DNA from: Candidatus Aenigmatarchaeota archaeon
GTDB taxonomy: Archaea; Aenigmatarchaeota; Aenigmatarchaeia; GW2011-AR5
Direction: 5' to 3'
DNA length: 64,000 bases
Assembly (NCBI GenBank): GCA_016198685.1
Contig: JACQID010000006.1
Span: 62,001 to 126,000, forward strand
Shown: positions 3,580 through 11,565 of the stretch, piece after piece
Layout of the letters: each line of letters begins with the position of its first letter
Position numbering within the stretch: position 1 is the first letter of the stretch
The notes under the pieces: model-generated
What the model was told of the DNA's origin: nothing
What the model saw: the letters and a program-made list of their open reading frames with translations, nothing else
Databases searched by the model: none
Translations under genes and position numbers: made by a program

Positions 3580-3595
3580 AATGGGGGTGTGGTAC

Positions 3596-4849
3596 ATGGA
3601 AGCAGATCAGGAGTTAGTTTTAAGCAATTCAGCAACAAGCGGCAATATATTCTCGCAGTATATTGAAAGCCCGAGTATTTTCACAGATAAGCGCGTTTTA
3701 ACCTCTTCTTTTGTTCCTGGTAGCATACCGCACAGGGAAGAAGAAATAAAGCACATAAGCTCCGTTCTTGCCCCTATGCTCAGGGGTTATCATGCCAATA
3801 ACGTCTTTGTTTATGGGACATGCGGCACAGGAAAAACTATCTGCTGCAGATTCGTTGTTTCCCAATTACAAGAAGCGGTCAAAGCCGCAGCAACACAAAT
3901 TAAGGTCATATACATAAATTGCAAGATGGAGCGGGTTTCCGATACCGAGTACAGGCTTTTTGCCCAAATGCTCAAGCAACTTGGTGAGGAAGTGCCGTAC
4001 ACAGGATTACCAACTGACGTAATCTATAGGAAGTTCTTTGCTAAGGTTGCTGAAAAGAAGCAGAGTGTCATCATCATATTAGATGAGATAGACGCGCTTT
4101 ACAAGAAAGTTGGTGATGATTTCCTTTACAACATAACCCGTGCCAACAATGAATTAGGAGAGGCAAACTTGAGCATAATAGGCATAACCAACGACATATC
4201 TTTCAGGGACAATCTTGACGTGAGAGTGAAATCATCATTAAGCGAAGAAGAAGTGATGTTCAGGCCTTACAATGCCGTGCAGTTAAGGGACATATTGTCA
4301 TCCCGTGCCAAGGACGGTTTTGTCAAAGGGGCCGTGAGCGAGAGCGTCATAAATAAGTGTGCGGCTCTGGCAGCTCAGGAGCACGGCGATGCGCGCAGGG
4401 CTTTGGATTTGTTGAGGGTTGCCGGGGAAGTTGCTGAAAGAATGGGGGAAACAGTCGTCAAGGAAAGGCATGTTGACGTAGCCGAAGAAAAAATAGATCT
4501 TGACAGGATAACCGAGACCGTTAAATCCCAGCCGGCACAATCCCAGCTTGTGCTTTACACGATAATAAAGATGAATGAGGAAGCCAAGCAGAAGGAAAAA
4601 TGGGCCGACAGAAGGCTGCTCACAGGAGACATATTCTCTAAATATGAGGAACTTTGCAGGGCCAATGGCGCAAAGGTTCTTACGCAGCGCAGGATAAGCG
4701 ATCTCATAGGTGAACTGGATATGTTCGGCATAATAAATGCCAAGGTCATATCTAAGGGAAGGCACGGCAGGACCCGAGAGATATCCTTAGCCATGAACGA
4801 AACCGCATTAGGCAAAGTAAGAAACTACCTTATGAACAGGTTTGGATGA
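3596..4849 (+). CDS. cdc6: Orc1/Cdc6 replication initiator (AAA+ ATPase with winged helix)
   Basis: Origin-binding and helicase-loading ATPase. The protein is 417 residues, normal for the family. Walker A G-T-C-G-T-G-K-T lies at residues 74-81, Walker B I-L-D-E-I-D around 161-166, and a sensor-1-like I-T-N-D follows near residue 200. The C-terminal third is a winged-helix domain for ORB binding. The ATG at 3596 is preferred over an in-frame ATG at 3581 because GGGGGTG just upstream gives a Shine-Dalgarno match. The gene overlaps the PolD small subunit gene by 4 nt and lies beside the ORB-like boxes it would bind. Confidence 0.95.
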   Translation: MEADQELVLSNSATSGNIFSQYIESPSIFTDKRVLTSSFVPGSIPHREEEIKHISSVLAPMLRGYHANNVFVYGTCGTGKTICCRFVVSQLQEAVKAAATQIKVIYINCKMERVSDTEYRLFAQMLKQLGEEVPYTGLPTDVIYRKFFAKVAEKKQSVIIILDEIDALYKKVGDDFLYNITRANNELGEANLSIIGITNDISFRDNLDVRVKSSLSEEEVMFRPYNAVQLRDILSSRAKDGFVKGAVSESVINKCAALAAQEHGDARRALDLLRVAGEVAERMGETVVKERHVDVAEEKIDLDRITETVKSQPAQSQLVLYTIIKMNEEAKQKEKWADRRLLTGDIFSKYEELCRANGAKVLTQRRISDLIGELDMFGIINAKVISKGRHGRTREISLAMNETALGKVRNYLMNRFG

Positions 4850-5913
4850 TGGACAAAGCTGATATCGTACGGCATTATTTTGACCGGCAGCAGCTTCTGA
4901 CTCCGGCGGCGCTTGATAAGCTATCTGCTGCAGGCAGGCTGCCGGAAACAGATTCCGGGCTTTTTGTCATTGATAAAAGCGATCTTGAGCAGGACAACAT
5001 ACGGATTCTTAAGTGTCTCCAGAGCAGGCCGAAGGAGGTAGACACGGATATGTTCCTGAAATTTTATACGTCCAAATACAACAAAATGCGCGATATATTT
5101 ACTGCGCGTTTCAACAAGAATTTTATCTCCTTGAATAAGGTAGACGCTTCGCGTTCTGAAATAGCGGTATTCGGCATAGTCAAGGATGTGAAAGACAAGA
5201 CAATAGAGCTTGAGGATATGACATCCTCGGTCTCTGTAGTTTTTGAAACTCCGTTGGAAAAAGTGGAGCGCGATGACGCCATTGCAGTCGAGGGTGTAAG
5301 CGGCGGCAAAGTAATCTACGGCAAAAAAATAATGTTTGCAGATGTTCCATTGAGGCAGCCGGCGACGGGCACAGGCAAGGCGTGTTTTATTTCCGATTTG
5401 AGGCTTAGCGAAGCTCCGCGCAAGGAAGCTGAGAAATTCTTTTCGTGGTTCCAGAACCAGGACATCAGGAACCTTTTCATTTGCGGAGACACAGGGGATC
5501 TTGCCGCGCTTGAGGCTATAGTACGCAGATATTGTAGCGGAAAGAATATCTTTGTCGCCCCGGGCGAAGCGGATGACAAAGAGTATCCGCGCTTGCCGCT
5601 TAAGACGCCTAGTGTCACAGCACTTTCGGATCCCGCTATCGTTGAAATCAACGGCATAAAGATACTTGTTATTCATAACTTTGAGATAGGGATGCTGCGC
5701 AAGCGTTACTTGGGCAGGAGCAAGTCTATCTTGCCAGATGACTACTTGGTCTTGGAAGATGTTCCTGATATAGTGCATTGCGGCCATACAGGAAAACCGT
5801 TTGTCCAGAATTACAAGGCCATAACCATAGTCAACAGCGGGTCAATACTGGAGGAATTCAAGCCCGTTGTCATAGATTTTGCCACACGCGAGGTAAGGCA
5901 GGCTGCTTTGTGA
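4846..5913 (+). CDS. DNA polymerase D small subunit (DP1), nuclease site degenerate
   Basis: 355 residues, shorter than the 450-600 of most DP1 proteins. An N-terminal helical part (1-95) is followed by an OB-fold (about 104-168) and a calcineurin-like phosphoesterase fold (about 178-335). The family nuclease motifs are recognisable but altered: S-D-L-R at 183-186 (usually S-D-I-H), G-D-T-G-D at 214-218, P-G-E-A-D at 239-243 (usually P-G-N-H-D), I-H-N at 276-278 and G-H-T-G at 313-316 (usually G-H-x-H). At least three metal or acid residues are therefore lost, and 3'-5' exonuclease activity is unlikely. ATGA overlap with cdc6 indicates co-translation. The catalytic subunit DP2 is not in the window. 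Confidence 0.88.
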   Translation: MMDKADIVRHYFDRQQLLTPAALDKLSAAGRLPETDSGLFVIDKSDLEQDNIRILKCLQSRPKEVDTDMFLKFYTSKYNKMRDIFTARFNKNFISLNKVDASRSEIAVFGIVKDVKDKTIELEDMTSSVSVVFETPLEKVERDDAIAVEGVSGGKVIYGKKIMFADVPLRQPATGTGKACFISDLRLSEAPRKEAEKFFSWFQNQDIRNLFICGDTGDLAALEAIVRRYCSGKNIFVAPGEADDKEYPRLPLKTPSVTALSDPAIVEINGIKILVIHNFEIGMLRKRYLGRSKSILPDDYLVLEDVPDIVHCGHTGKPFVQNYKAITIVNSGSILEEFKPVVIDFATREVRQAAL

Positions 5914-5985: not shown

Positions 5986-8658
5986 ATGGCACTTGTTTTT
6001 CAGATACTTGATGTGGATTATTTTCTCAATGGCGATAAGCCTGTAGTCCGCCTCTTTGGAAGAAGTGACGCCGGCAATGCCGTATGCGTATTATGCAGGG
6101 ATTTTCTTCCTTATTTTTACATAAGGCCGAAGAATGAAGAGGCTTTGGATGACGTAAAGGAGATCCTTTCCATAGAAGAAGCGGAAAAATTATTGGCAAT
6201 AGGATATTCAACCAAGAAAACAAGGCTTTTGAAAATCACCATATCGAAGCCGCAGGATGTTCCCATGATTAAGGAACAGCTCCTCAGCCAAGGCATAGCA
6301 GAAGAAGTCTTTGAAGCCGATATATTATTCAAGAACAGGTTTCTGGTTGACCATGACCTGCACGGCATGCAGTGGGCAGAAGCAGACGTTGTCAAGACCA
6401 GTACCAGCACGGTAAAGGTTCCTGCCTTTGAGATGAAATCCATAAAGCCGATGGACAGGAAAGACAACGCCAAACTTTCAATACTATCATTTGATATAGA
6501 GTGCGTGCCATCCGATCCCAACAGGCCACTGGATTCCAAGAAAGACCCTGTAGTCATCATATCACTCTCATTCAACGTTCCTTACAGGGGAACCACGAGC
6601 ATAGTGCAGGTCGCCAAGCCTGTCAACGGAAAAGGGCTGCAGGGATTTCCCAATGAAAAAGACATGCTGGAAGGGTTTCTGCGCGTTATTGACGAATATA
6701 ATCCGGACATAATCACAGGCTACAACATAAACACATTCGACATACCCTACATACTGGAGCGAATGCGGGTGCACGGAATACCGCCCATGCTTGGCAGATG
6801 CAAGGACAAGCCGGCTTATAATAAAAGCACAGGAGTCACGCAGGAATCCATAATTCCGGGCAGGGTGGTTGCGGATCCTTACCAGATATTGAAGAGGGAC
6901 CCAAGAATCAAGTTCAGCCGTTATGACTTAAACACAATATGCAAAGTCCTGCTTGGCGACACCAAAATGGACGTTGAGTACAGGGAGATGCCCAAGCTTT
7001 GGAACGGGCCTCTCGAAGGCGTCTTGCGTTTTGCAGAATATGCACGCAAGGACGCAGAGCTTAATCTGCGTCTTGTGGTTGAAAAGGACATGCTATCCAA
7101 TTTCATAGAAATAGCCAAAGTTTCAGGTACTGTGATGCAGGACACATTCGGCGGCCAGACTTTGCGAATAGACAATATGCTCCTCTATGAGTTCAGGAAG
7201 CGCGGTTATGTTTTACCGGCCAAACCTGATGCCAATTTAATGAATAAACGTACCAATGAAAGGGAAAAAGCAGGGCTCAAAGGCGCAACAGTTCTTGAGC
7301 CGAAGAAAGGATTGCATGCCGAAGGCTGCATACTGGTCATGGACTTCAAGAGCCTATATCCAAGCATAATGAGAACGTTCAATACGTCTCCCGATTCGCT
7401 TCTTGTCGATGATTCGGTCGGCGAGTTTTATACGTCGCCGACCGGCGCGAAGTTCGTGCCTGCATCTGTACACGAAGGAGTGTTTCCGTACATCGTCGGA
7501 AAGCTGCTTGACAGCAGATCAGAAGTCAAGGGGCAGATGAAGGATGCTGACGGCGAAATGAAAAAAATATTGAATGCAAGGCAATATGCGTTAAAAGACC
7601 TTGCCAATTCGTTCTACGGATACACAGGCTATCTGCGGGCGCGCGTTTATGACATACGGGTTGCGAGCACGATAACGGCCATAGGAAGGGAGAACATAGA
7701 GAAGACAAAGGACTTGATTGAAAACAACTTCGACATTGAGGTCGTATATGGCGATACTGACTCGGTTTTCATCAAGACCAAGACCACGAACCTTGAGGAT
7801 GCAAAAAAAATCGGCGAGGATATATCCAAGTTCGTGAGTGAAAGATTGCCAGGTTTTCTTACCCTGGACTTTGAAAAGATATACAGAACGTTCCTTATTC
7901 TTACAAAGAAAAGATATGCCGGATGGAAGTTCGAATTCGGGAAGAATGGATGGGAAGATTCTATAGAGATGAAAGGGATAGAGACGGTGAGACGCGATTG
8001 GTGCAAGCTCGTTTCTGAAACGATGAGAACCGTGCTTGACATAATACTGAAGGAAGGAGACCTGCAGAAGGCGGTCAATGAAACAAAGAGGGTCATAATA
8101 CAGCTCCGCAACAATGAAATAGATTTCGACAAGCTGACCGTTGTAAAAGGAATAACAAAATCTCTTGGAAGTTATGACGGCATGTTGCCGCACATAGAGC
8201 TGGCAAGGAAACTTGCGCAGAGAAACCCCCACGACCCGCCGAAGATCGGCGACCGCCTCGGGTTTGTCATAATCAAGGGCAATCAGATGCTGTCGAAACG
8301 GGCGGAAGATACGAAATATGCAAAGGACAACAAGCTTCAGATAGATTCTGACTACTATATTAATTCCCAAGTCTTCCCCCCTGTAGAGAGGATACTTTCT
8401 TCGGTCGGGGTCGAAAAGAGCGAAGTGTTCGGCTCTGGCCGTCAGTCAACGATAGCAGACATCATGTTCGGAACAAAGCGCAAAATGAAGCATGAAATAG
8501 CCATCAATTACGGCACAGTAGCCGGCTGGGAGGGTCTGGTTTGCCAGAAATGCGCGAAGTCGCATCCGAGAATGCCTTTAAGCGGCAGATGCGAATGCGG
8601 CGGCCCGCTTCTTTTTTCATATCAGGGAAGCGCCGCGCAGAAAGTAGTGACCGAATAG
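5986..8658 (+). CDS. Family B DNA polymerase (PolB) with 3'-5' exonuclease
   Basis: 890 residues. Exonuclease motifs: ExoI F-D-I-E at 169-172, ExoII Y-N-I-N-T-F-D at 246-252, ExoIII Y-A-R-K-D at 352-356. Polymerase motifs: A D-F-K-S-L-Y-P-S at 453-460, B R-Q-Y-A-L-K ... N-S-F-Y-G at 532-545, C Y-G-D-T-D-S at 588-593. All catalytic acids are present. The C-terminus has a four-cysteine cluster (C-Q-K-C ... C-E-C) that could bind zinc or an Fe-S cluster. It is an intact proofreading polymerase next to a PolD small subunit that seems to lack its own nuclease. Confidence 0.97.
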   Translation: MALVFQILDVDYFLNGDKPVVRLFGRSDAGNAVCVLCRDFLPYFYIRPKNEEALDDVKEILSIEEAEKLLAIGYSTKKTRLLKITISKPQDVPMIKEQLLSQGIAEEVFEADILFKNRFLVDHDLHGMQWAEADVVKTSTSTVKVPAFEMKSIKPMDRKDNAKLSILSFDIECVPSDPNRPLDSKKDPVVIISLSFNVPYRGTTSIVQVAKPVNGKGLQGFPNEKDMLEGFLRVIDEYNPDIITGYNINTFDIPYILERMRVHGIPPMLGRCKDKPAYNKSTGVTQESIIPGRVVADPYQILKRDPRIKFSRYDLNTICKVLLGDTKMDVEYREMPKLWNGPLEGVLRFAEYARKDAELNLRLVVEKDMLSNFIEIAKVSGTVMQDTFGGQTLRIDNMLLYEFRKRGYVLPAKPDANLMNKRTNEREKAGLKGATVLEPKKGLHAEGCILVMDFKSLYPSIMRTFNTSPDSLLVDDSVGEFYTSPTGAKFVPASVHEGVFPYIVGKLLDSRSEVKGQMKDADGEMKKILNARQYALKDLANSFYGYTGYLRARVYDIRVASTITAIGRENIEKTKDLIENNFDIEVVYGDTDSVFIKTKTTNLEDAKKIGEDISKFVSERLPGFLTLDFEKIYRTFLILTKKRYAGWKFEFGKNGWEDSIEMKGIETVRRDWCKLVSETMRTVLDIILKEGDLQKAVNETKRVIIQLRNNEIDFDKLTVVKGITKSLGSYDGMLPHIELARKLAQRNPHDPPKIGDRLGFVIIKGNQMLSKRAEDTKYAKDNKLQIDSDYYINSQVFPPVERILSSVGVEKSEVFGSGRQSTIADIMFGTKRKMKHEIAINYGTVAGWEGLVCQKCAKSHPRMPLSGRCECGGPLLFSYQGSAAQKVVTE

Positions 8659-10519: not shown

Positions 10520-11197
10520 ATGCCTGTTTTTGAACTCAAAAGCTGCGGGAAGTGCGGAGGCGACACCTACATAGAAGAGGATCGTAACAGCATTTATAGG
10601 ACATGCCTGCATTGTGGTACTCTGGATGATATCATAGTCAAGTCAGAATCAGGGTATCGTGCAAGATTTCCTACATCGAGCGTGGATGACGACGAAACTG
10701 AGAAATACGTTTCTCCCAAAGACTCGTTGCATGGGCTGAAAAAATACATGGACGTTCTAAGCATGCTTGAAAAAGGCAAGGCATGCAGGGACGATATTCT
10801 TGCAGTTCTAGGCGGGGAGGGCAGTGACAAAGGAAAAGGCACATTTTGGGCCATGATGAAGCAAGGCTATGTGGCTCAAGAAAAGCACGGCAGGCGGGGA
10901 ACGAACTACACAATCACAAAGCAAGGCTTGCATGCCGTTCAGTTTTATAGGGAATGGAAGGACAAAGGCGCTGATATGAATATTCTGCTTTCCGCACTCT
11001 GCGTTATGAGTCTTGTGAGTGAAGAAGGCTATTCGTCTCTGAATGAAAGGGGACGGCTAATCGCATATAAGATGGAAACAAGGAAAATGATAGCCAGAGG
11101 AACGCTGGTTGATCAAGCGCAGAAAGAACTTGAGAAGTACCGTCCGCTTGTGCCGATAGCGATGCATGAATACGGACCCATATATCGTTTGCGATGA
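10520..11197 (+). CDS. Zinc-ribbon plus winged-helix protein, putative transcription regulator
   Basis: 225 residues. An N-terminal zinc ribbon has C-G-K-C-G-G at residues 9-14 and C-L-H-C-G at 29-33, as in TFIIB/TFIIS-type ribbons. The middle (about 75-145) reads as a winged helix, with a K-G-K-G-T-F-W-A-M-M helix and the wing segment H-G-R-R-G-T-N-Y-T-I-T-K. The C-terminal helical part is unassigned. It is not TFB, as it lacks the cyclin repeats. It precedes the NAC gene, which has its own TATA element. The ligand or target is unknown. Confidence 0.65.
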   Translation: MPVFELKSCGKCGGDTYIEEDRNSIYRTCLHCGTLDDIIVKSESGYRARFPTSSVDDDETEKYVSPKDSLHGLKKYMDVLSMLEKGKACRDDILAVLGGEGSDKGKGTFWAMMKQGYVAQEKHGRRGTNYTITKQGLHAVQFYREWKDKGADMNILLSALCVMSLVSEEGYSSLNERGRLIAYKMETRKMIARGTLVDQAQKELEKYRPLVPIAMHEYGPIYRLR

Positions 11198-11207
11198 TTT
11201 TAATATC
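11198..11207 (+). promoter_or_regulatory. TATA box of the NAC gene
   Basis: TTTTAATATC at 11198-11207, overlapping the 3' end of the preceding gene's stop region, is centred 24 nt before the ATG at 11227. This supports a leaderless start there rather than at the in-frame ATG at 11194. Confidence 0.5.
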
Positions 11208-11226
11208 TTTCAGAAGAGATATACTT

Positions 11227-11565
11227 ATGTTTCCAGGAATGGGCAATGTCGATCCGAAGAAGATGCAGCAGCTTATGAAAAAGCTGAACATGAACGTCAA
11301 GGACATAGATGCTGAAGAAGTCATAATCAGATGCAAAGACAAGGACATACGCATAACAAGCCCTGAAGTCATGGTTACCAACATGATGGGACGAGATGTC
11401 TATCAGATAAGCGGCCAGGTTTCGGAGTCATCGAAAGGCGCGAACGAAGAGGACATAAAAATGGTCATGGAGCAAACCGGCAAGGATAGAGAAACCGTTG
11501 CCAGAAAACTTGAGGACCTCAATAATGACCTTGCGCGCGCGATAATGGAACTGAAGGAGAAGTAA
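11227..11565 (+). CDS. nac: Nascent polypeptide-associated complex protein (archaeal NAC)
   Basis: 112 residues, the usual length. It starts MFPGMGNVDPKKMQQLMKK, the conserved archaeal NAC N-terminus, followed by the NAC beta-barrel (I-R-C-K-D-K-D-I-R-I ... Y-Q-I-S-G) and a C-terminal UBA helix bundle (E-D-I-K-M-V-M-E-Q-T-G). It forms a homodimer that binds nascent chains at the ribosome. A T7 run at 11567-11573 just after the stop is a plausible archaeal terminator. Confidence 0.95.
   Translation: MFPGMGNVDPKKMQQLMKKLNMNVKDIDAEEVIIRCKDKDIRITSPEVMVTNMMGRDVYQISGQVSESSKGANEEDIKMVMEQTGKDRETVARKLEDLNNDLARAIMELKEK

Follow-up and report, generated by a model that had tools for sequence, protein, structure and literature searches.

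The gene at positions 4846 to 5913 of the window (the whole 64,000-nucleotide stretch of DNA analysed) raises the question of what DP1, the small subunit of archaeal DNA polymerase D (PolD), does in an organism in which residues of its nuclease site have been replaced. The window belongs to a 935-kb Aenigmatarchaeota genome in 8 contigs, estimated to be 93.7% complete. The following features of the DP1 locus are used below:

3581..4849, + strand: orc1/cdc6 replication initiator gene, the stop codon of which overlaps the DP1 start (NCBIfam ORC1-type DNA replication protein TIGR02928, 414.6 bits)
4846..5913, + strand: DP1 homologue (PolD small subunit, B-subunit-like), 355 aa, with a phosphoesterase domain predicted to be catalytically dead
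5053..5370, + strand: OB domain of DP1, approximately residues 70-175, the best conserved part, with a PF18018-like stretch (70-154) below the cut-off
5392..5403, + strand: motif I, SDLR, residues 183-186 (ISDLRL); SDxH in the active form, with Arg in place of the metal-ligand His
5485..5490, + strand: motif II, GD, residues 214-215, kept
5560..5574, + strand: motif III, PGEAD, residues 239-243; PGNHD in the active form, with substitutions of both the metal-ligand Asn and the essential His
5674..5676, + strand: motif IV, His277 (IHN), kept
5782..5793, + strand: motif V, GHTG, residues 313-316; active form GHxH, second metal-ligand His replaced

The protein matches the NCBIfam model for the DNA-directed DNA polymerase II small subunit with E 2.5e-31 (109 bits), although the strict equivalog cut-off of 445 is not reached, and it matches the DP1 chains in PDB with E 6e-8 as a single sequence and 8.5e-47 with a family profile. 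Both the OB and the phosphoesterase domains, with sequence homology to DP1, are present. A predicted single-chain structure, derived from an alignment of two rows, had a mean pLDDT of 35.

For P. abyssi DP1, the parts of PMC10721889 cited here name D360, H362, D404, N450, H497, H560 and H562 as metal ligands and H451 as essential, and mutation of H451 to Ala was used for making exonuclease-dead PolD. Four of these eight residues (D, D, H and H) are kept in the window DP1, and the others are replaced (H362 > R, N450 > E, H451 > A and H562 > G); thus, the intact two-metal nuclease site of eight residues is not present. The Pfam Metallophos_2 model nevertheless scores above its cut-off (39.1 versus 27). 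The closest named locus comes from an organism labelled "Candidatus Aenigmatarchaeota archaeon" (89%). The DP1 of a separately published Aenigmatarchaeota MAG (L052), 89% identical, carries the same four replacements. The whole-gene estimates are dN 0.058 and dS 1.37, the latter near saturation, with dN/dS of approximately 0.04, which is indicative of purifying selection; dN is 0.023 in residues 91-175, the OB part and the most constrained one, versus 0.060 in residues 176-355, the phosphoesterase part, which is still constrained. Because the same four changes recur in an independent MAG and the gene is under purifying selection, the substitutions are not a sequencing slip. The first-pass annotation had suggested that the nuclease site is degenerate, and this is borne out by SDLR, PGEAD and GHTG as read in the open reading frame. 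The DP1 gene is alive, and its nuclease, as judged from the sequence, is very probably dead.

The same annotation had concluded that PolD would be unable to use DP1 for proofreading in this organism, which presupposes a PolD. A search with DP2 profiles did not find a DP2 gene in this genome (93.7% complete), and the sole match is to a four-cysteine finger near the C-terminus of the neighbouring B-family polymerase (NF003103 profile positions 1043-1084). Since no DP2 was found, PolD seems to be absent from this organism, and that conclusion has to be dropped. A DP2 body turned up in 10 of the 145 class genomes, every one of them a member of a single family (f11), and not in the other 135; among the 39 class genomes that are at least 90% complete, DP2 is present in one. 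An assembly gap as the mere cause of the missing DP2 is rejected by this class-wide absence. Another intact DP1 gene, which the first-pass annotation had named as one of two findings that would overturn its claim, was not found in the genome either: the protein search returned one match, and the profile search (23 rows, E up to 10) returned two. The second profile match was rejected as DP1, being a 213-aa stand-alone calcineurin-like phosphoesterase without the DP1 OB domain.

The gene that follows DP1 encodes a B-family polymerase (PolB), with the following features:

5986..8658, + strand: B-family DNA polymerase, 890 aa, 72 nt after DP1 (PF00136 1.9e-108, PF03104 1.1e-35), exonuclease and polymerase residues intact
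8440..8472, + strand: PCNA-box-like stretch RQSTIADIMFG before the finger, which lines up with the Gln region at the C-terminus of PolB chains in the PDB
8542..8598, + strand: four-cysteine finger C853-C856-C869-C871, resembling the third zinc module in DP2, the one by which DP2 docks on DP1

In the PDB, this PolB is matched best by a Pol delta catalytic subunit (presumably the human one), with E 4.3e-108; however, an archaeal PolB, which we take to be from Thermococcales, is nearly equal (1.8e-105), so the best match alone is no proof of eukaryotic kinship. All six exonuclease residues (D170, E172, N247, D252, Y352 and D356) are intact, in agreement with what had been claimed for this neighbour, and they are intact in 41 of 41 PolB reading frames of the class that are readable there (out of 47; six without a readable exonuclease domain were excluded). 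We assigned RQSTIADIMFG as PCNA-box-like, and all 27 aligned PolB C-termini share its Gln. The last 45 residues match the C-terminal region of DP2 (profile A2 versus DP2 6knb_B, E 4.3e-8), and an hhalign comparison of the PolB finger with the DP2 of f11 gave 97.1% and E 7e-11 over 45 columns, the pattern CxxC...RRxPLxGxC...C being common to many members of both sets. Because the PolB profile also picked up DP2 rows through the shared finger, L104-L107 were removed before the PolB counts. The four cysteines are present in all 45 PolB frames with a readable C-terminus, out of 47 (two L079 PolB fragments cut by a contig end were excluded). In PolD, the KxRRxP loop of the DP2 zinc module fits into an acidic groove that lies between the two domains of DP1, OB and phosphoesterase, and the Zn-III peptide of DP2 binds DP1 with an affinity in the nanomolar range, as described in the part of PMC6355029 used here. 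RRxP is present in 26 of the 45 fingers and, by the pattern used, absent from 19; the window finger reads HPRMP, having lost the first Arg.

The B-family polymerase model has exactly two matches in the window genome, namely the 890-aa protein (5986-8658) and a 764-aa protein elsewhere, in which exonuclease and polymerase motifs are visible but the finger is missing. In each of the 11 f11 genomes searched, there is a PolB match with approximately 28-33% identity to the window PolB, and none higher (one long match of at least 2.2 kb in 7 of the 11 genomes, and pieces in the others). Thus, f11 looks like the usual archaeon with PolD and one PolB, versus two PolBs and a dead DP1 in the window genome. 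It should be noted that the PolBs of G005, G007, G016 and G041 (L080, L082, L099 and L062, respectively) are long (1317-1400 codons) and carry insertions at KDMSNS|VHA or YGDS|VT; both long PolBs that were tested (L082 and L062) have Pfam intein-splicing and LAGLIDADG matches. Farther downstream in the window, the product of a 123-aa reading frame (11194-11565) resembles an archaeal nascent-polypeptide-associated complex protein.

The orc1-DP1-PolB order is widespread in the class. In 40 of 53 DP2-less loci, PolB comes directly after DP1 on the same strand; of the remaining 13, six have another arrangement and seven have no PolB in the fetched region. The orc1 gene is directly upstream of DP1 in 78 of 94 DP2-less loci, each with at least 450 nt of upstream sequence, versus none of the eight loci of the PolD-bearing f11. 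In Pyrococcus, the gene order is orc1-DP1-DP2; if this is right, PolB sits at the place of DP2. Two loci are arranged differently. In G001, a genome of the same genus, an ATPase gene (AAA_14/DUF4143; L079:2157-3617) lies between DP1 and PolB, and the PolB is split over two frames near a contig end, which may be an assembly error. In G141 (family f19, a single contig), there are two DP1 genes (L161 and L162), each with orc1 upstream, possibly a duplicated replication locus.

Across the class, DP1 was found in 139 of 156 genomes, and in 38 of the 39 with at least 90% completeness and no more than 5% contamination. The alignment with the DP1 of related genomes, which the first-pass annotation had proposed as a check, comprised 116 DP1 loci. 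In f11, all eight residues are present at all eight loci, so the changes in the window are not chance drift of an active family. Conversely, the 108 DP2-less loci, which come from 106 genomes (G018 and G141 have two loci each), include no intact site, and they range from seven of eight residues to none. The window's order (f1-f6, 29 loci) has between 0 and 7 of the eight residues, f22 (12 loci) between 0 and 6, and the other 67 loci, outside the window's order, f22 and f11, 0-2 in every case; these counts of 0-2 are not exact, because the alignment around the motifs is gappy in the strongly decayed families. With four residues left, the window DP1 is less decayed than most of its class. The Asn and the His of motif III occur together in none of the 108 DP2-less loci. 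Five rows of the window's order keep one of them: Asn in G008, G019 and G029, and His in G020 and G021, the alignment of G021 being doubtful. In the 28 rows of this order, the conservation of the eight active-site columns falls between the 16th and the 86th percentile, and for seven of the eight it does not exceed the 64th. Residues conserved over the 107 DP2-less rows and f11 include the non-catalytic E123, D124, T126, P165, R287, P307, D308, N322, Y323 and K324 (window numbering); D124 is present in 107 of 107 DP2-less rows, and position 165 is Ala in the window DP1, the Pro being conserved elsewhere. D166 is also among the conserved residues. The G018b locus, identical to the G015 DP1, is in the count of 116 but was excluded from the conservation and tree analyses, and the DP1 fragment L111|5170-5544 was excluded from the alignments.

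The DP1 reading frames of f11 are 488-512 aa long, except for the cut G035 and for G048 (L068:1184-3757), whose intact DP1 contains a 376-aa intein with a LAGLIDADG-like domain right after the Asp-Leu of motif II. The DP2 of G048 is in pieces: a 1466-codon frame (L107) matches DP2 from position 109 onwards and has an extra stretch near position 875, and the first 215 positions are on contig C69; an intein or an assembly break is likely.

In a DP1 tree of 48 rows, f11, the window's order and f22 each form one clade. This tree has several open forks; by unordered parsimony, it requires a minimum of three changes for the motif III Asn and three for the motif III His, against 6-12 for any one of the remaining six residues. 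A phylum-wide search (57 genomes) returned genomes from this class only and supplied no outgroup. The class can be arranged as a graded series, from the intact site of f11 (8/8, with DP2) through the half-decayed sites of the window's order and f22 to sites that are no longer recognisable. On the tree, it looks as if the His and the Asn of motif III were lost once, early, when PolB took over from DP2, and the other ligands were then worn away repeatedly; we put the odds of this scenario at about even. It is the simplest reading of the tree changes, with parallel losses also possible; because a losses-only model needs many parallel losses of Asn and His, a single early loss is not proven.

With no DP2 in the genome and a DP2-like finger only on the adjacent PolB, DP1 is most likely a structural B-subunit of this PolB. 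We suggest, with a probability of about 0.82, that DP1 is a former proofreading nuclease turned structural B-subunit of the finger-bearing PolB that replaced DP2. Under this model, DP2 would have been lost in most of the class, and a PolB with a C-terminal zinc finger, derived from DP2 or similar to it, would have taken over its place in both synthesis and proofreading. DP1 would dock on the finger of PolB as it does on DP2, and would hold the holoenzyme or the replisome together. Proofreading would be performed by the DnaQ-type exonuclease domain of PolB itself; because PolB would proofread itself, the active site of DP1 would no longer be needed and would decay, with the docking and folding residues retained. 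DP1 may have stayed because the finger is the same handle that DP2 gave. Several observations count against this explanation: the fingers without RRxP (19/45, the HPRMP of the window included), the 13 of 53 loci in which PolB is not beside DP1, and the four active-site residues that are left. In addition, the second, finger-less 764-aa PolB could be the main replicase.

Some of these observations fit other explanations. DP1 might have left the polymerases and work with other parts of the replisome (Orc1, GINS and RPA), the PolB finger binding DNA or some other target. This would agree with the adjacency of orc1, at least as conserved as that of PolB (78/94 and 40/53, respectively), with the DP1-GINS contact named in the title of PMC6741145, and with the missing RRxP; however, DP1 is found together with the DP2-type finger in those DP2-less loci that were read, and the finger looks like the same module of DP2 that makes the contact with DP1, so we consider this explanation unlikely. 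A shade less probable is a DP1 that has retained metal binding and, with a modified site in which Glu would serve as a ligand instead of Asn, nuclease or some other phosphoesterase activity. The equivalent of H451, the residue changed to Ala in the exonuclease-dead PolD mutants, is already Ala in the window DP1, the site residues across the order are mostly no better conserved than an ordinary column, and all 67 loci outside the order, f22 and f11 are down to 0-2 residues; these facts outweigh the four residues left here, the six or seven left in several relatives, among them members of f2 and f3, and the Metallophos_2 score.

It is very improbable that the organism has an ordinary PolD, with DP1 as its degenerate subunit and the DP2 gene missing from the assembly. 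One gene could indeed be absent from an assembly that is 93.7% complete in eight contigs, but the restriction of DP2 bodies to f11 (10 of 145 genomes), the recurrent orc1-DP1-PolB order and the presence of the finger on PolB in all 45 readable frames point the other way. A pseudogene or a sequencing error, suggested by nothing but the substitutions themselves, is refuted in practice by the independent MAG with the same changes, the open frame and the dN/dS value. The structural B-subunit is the preferred reading.

This reading has a precedent. According to the parts of Kazlauskas et al. 2020 (PMC7544198) cited here, DP2 is missing from most of the Aenigmarchaeota sequenced, the DP1 of the Aenigma group is inactive, and the B6-aenigma1 PolB, with a DP2-like C-terminal motif, was suggested as a DP2 replacement in Aenigmarchaeota; it was also proposed that the eukaryotic B-subunits possibly arose from ancestors of the Aenigma DP1 group. 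The window locus resembles that system ("Aenigma_GB_GCA_002789635-like" DP1 and B6-aenigma1 PolB) in the phylum, in the absence of DP2, in an apparently inactive DP1 and in a PolB that has an exonuclease of its own and one C4 motif at the C-terminus, most like that of DP2. We see no basic difference between them in these features. The first-pass annotation had also proposed that a degenerate archaeal DP1 would be an intermediate case; the idea is right and the comparison with eukaryotic B-subunits apt, although PMC7544198 had put it forward in 2020. A replacement of DP2 by a PolB with the finger, accompanied by an inactive DP1, has thus been described before, and what is added here is its breadth and its grading. 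Sections 19 and 20 of PMC7544198 do not contain the graded series or the orc1 gene order, although we do not claim that these are unpublished, and we found no later work on the Aenigmarchaeal PolB/inactive DP1 system in the open-access literature from 2020 on. In the Heimdallarchaeal LC3/B3 system, as given in the same parts of PMC7544198, DP1 is likewise found alongside a PolB that has a metal motif at its C-terminus; however, that PolB (B10) belongs to a different group, and its motif did not cluster with that of DP2.

The window DP1 shares with that of Pyrococcus the OB and phosphoesterase domains, the sequence homology and, if the Pyrococcus gene order given above is right, the adjacent orc1; it differs in that DP2 is absent, the nuclease site is broken and PolB is located where DP2 would be. 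It is also shorter (355 aa) than the DP1 of f11. Like the B-subunits of eukaryotic Pol alpha, delta and epsilon, it appears to combine a dead phosphoesterase domain with an OB domain, and its probable partner is likewise a B-family polymerase with a C-terminal metal-binding domain. Unlike the eukaryotic partners, the window PolB has one four-cysteine motif, not two (CysA and CysB), and, unlike the eukaryotic B-subunits, the window DP1 has some active-site residues left. No direct sequence kinship with these B-subunits was seen. The Pfam DNA_pol_E_B model gives 13.2 bits for the window DP1, under the cut-off of 29.1, and is matched at E up to 0.01 by 9 of 23 class members.

For the window gene itself, the result corrects any annotation as a working PolD subunit. 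Eukaryotic replicative polymerases pair a B-family catalytic subunit with a dead relative of archaeal DP1. The Aenigmatarchaeota would be an example of the same exchange among present-day archaea, and stages between the intact and the erased site survive in the window's order. The order of the steps, that is, whether the change of the partner polymerase, the loss of the essential His or the loss of metal binding came first, is testable by biochemistry. If the scenario of an early loss of the motif III pair is true, the graded series would be a natural record of a proofreading subunit becoming a eukaryote-like B-subunit.
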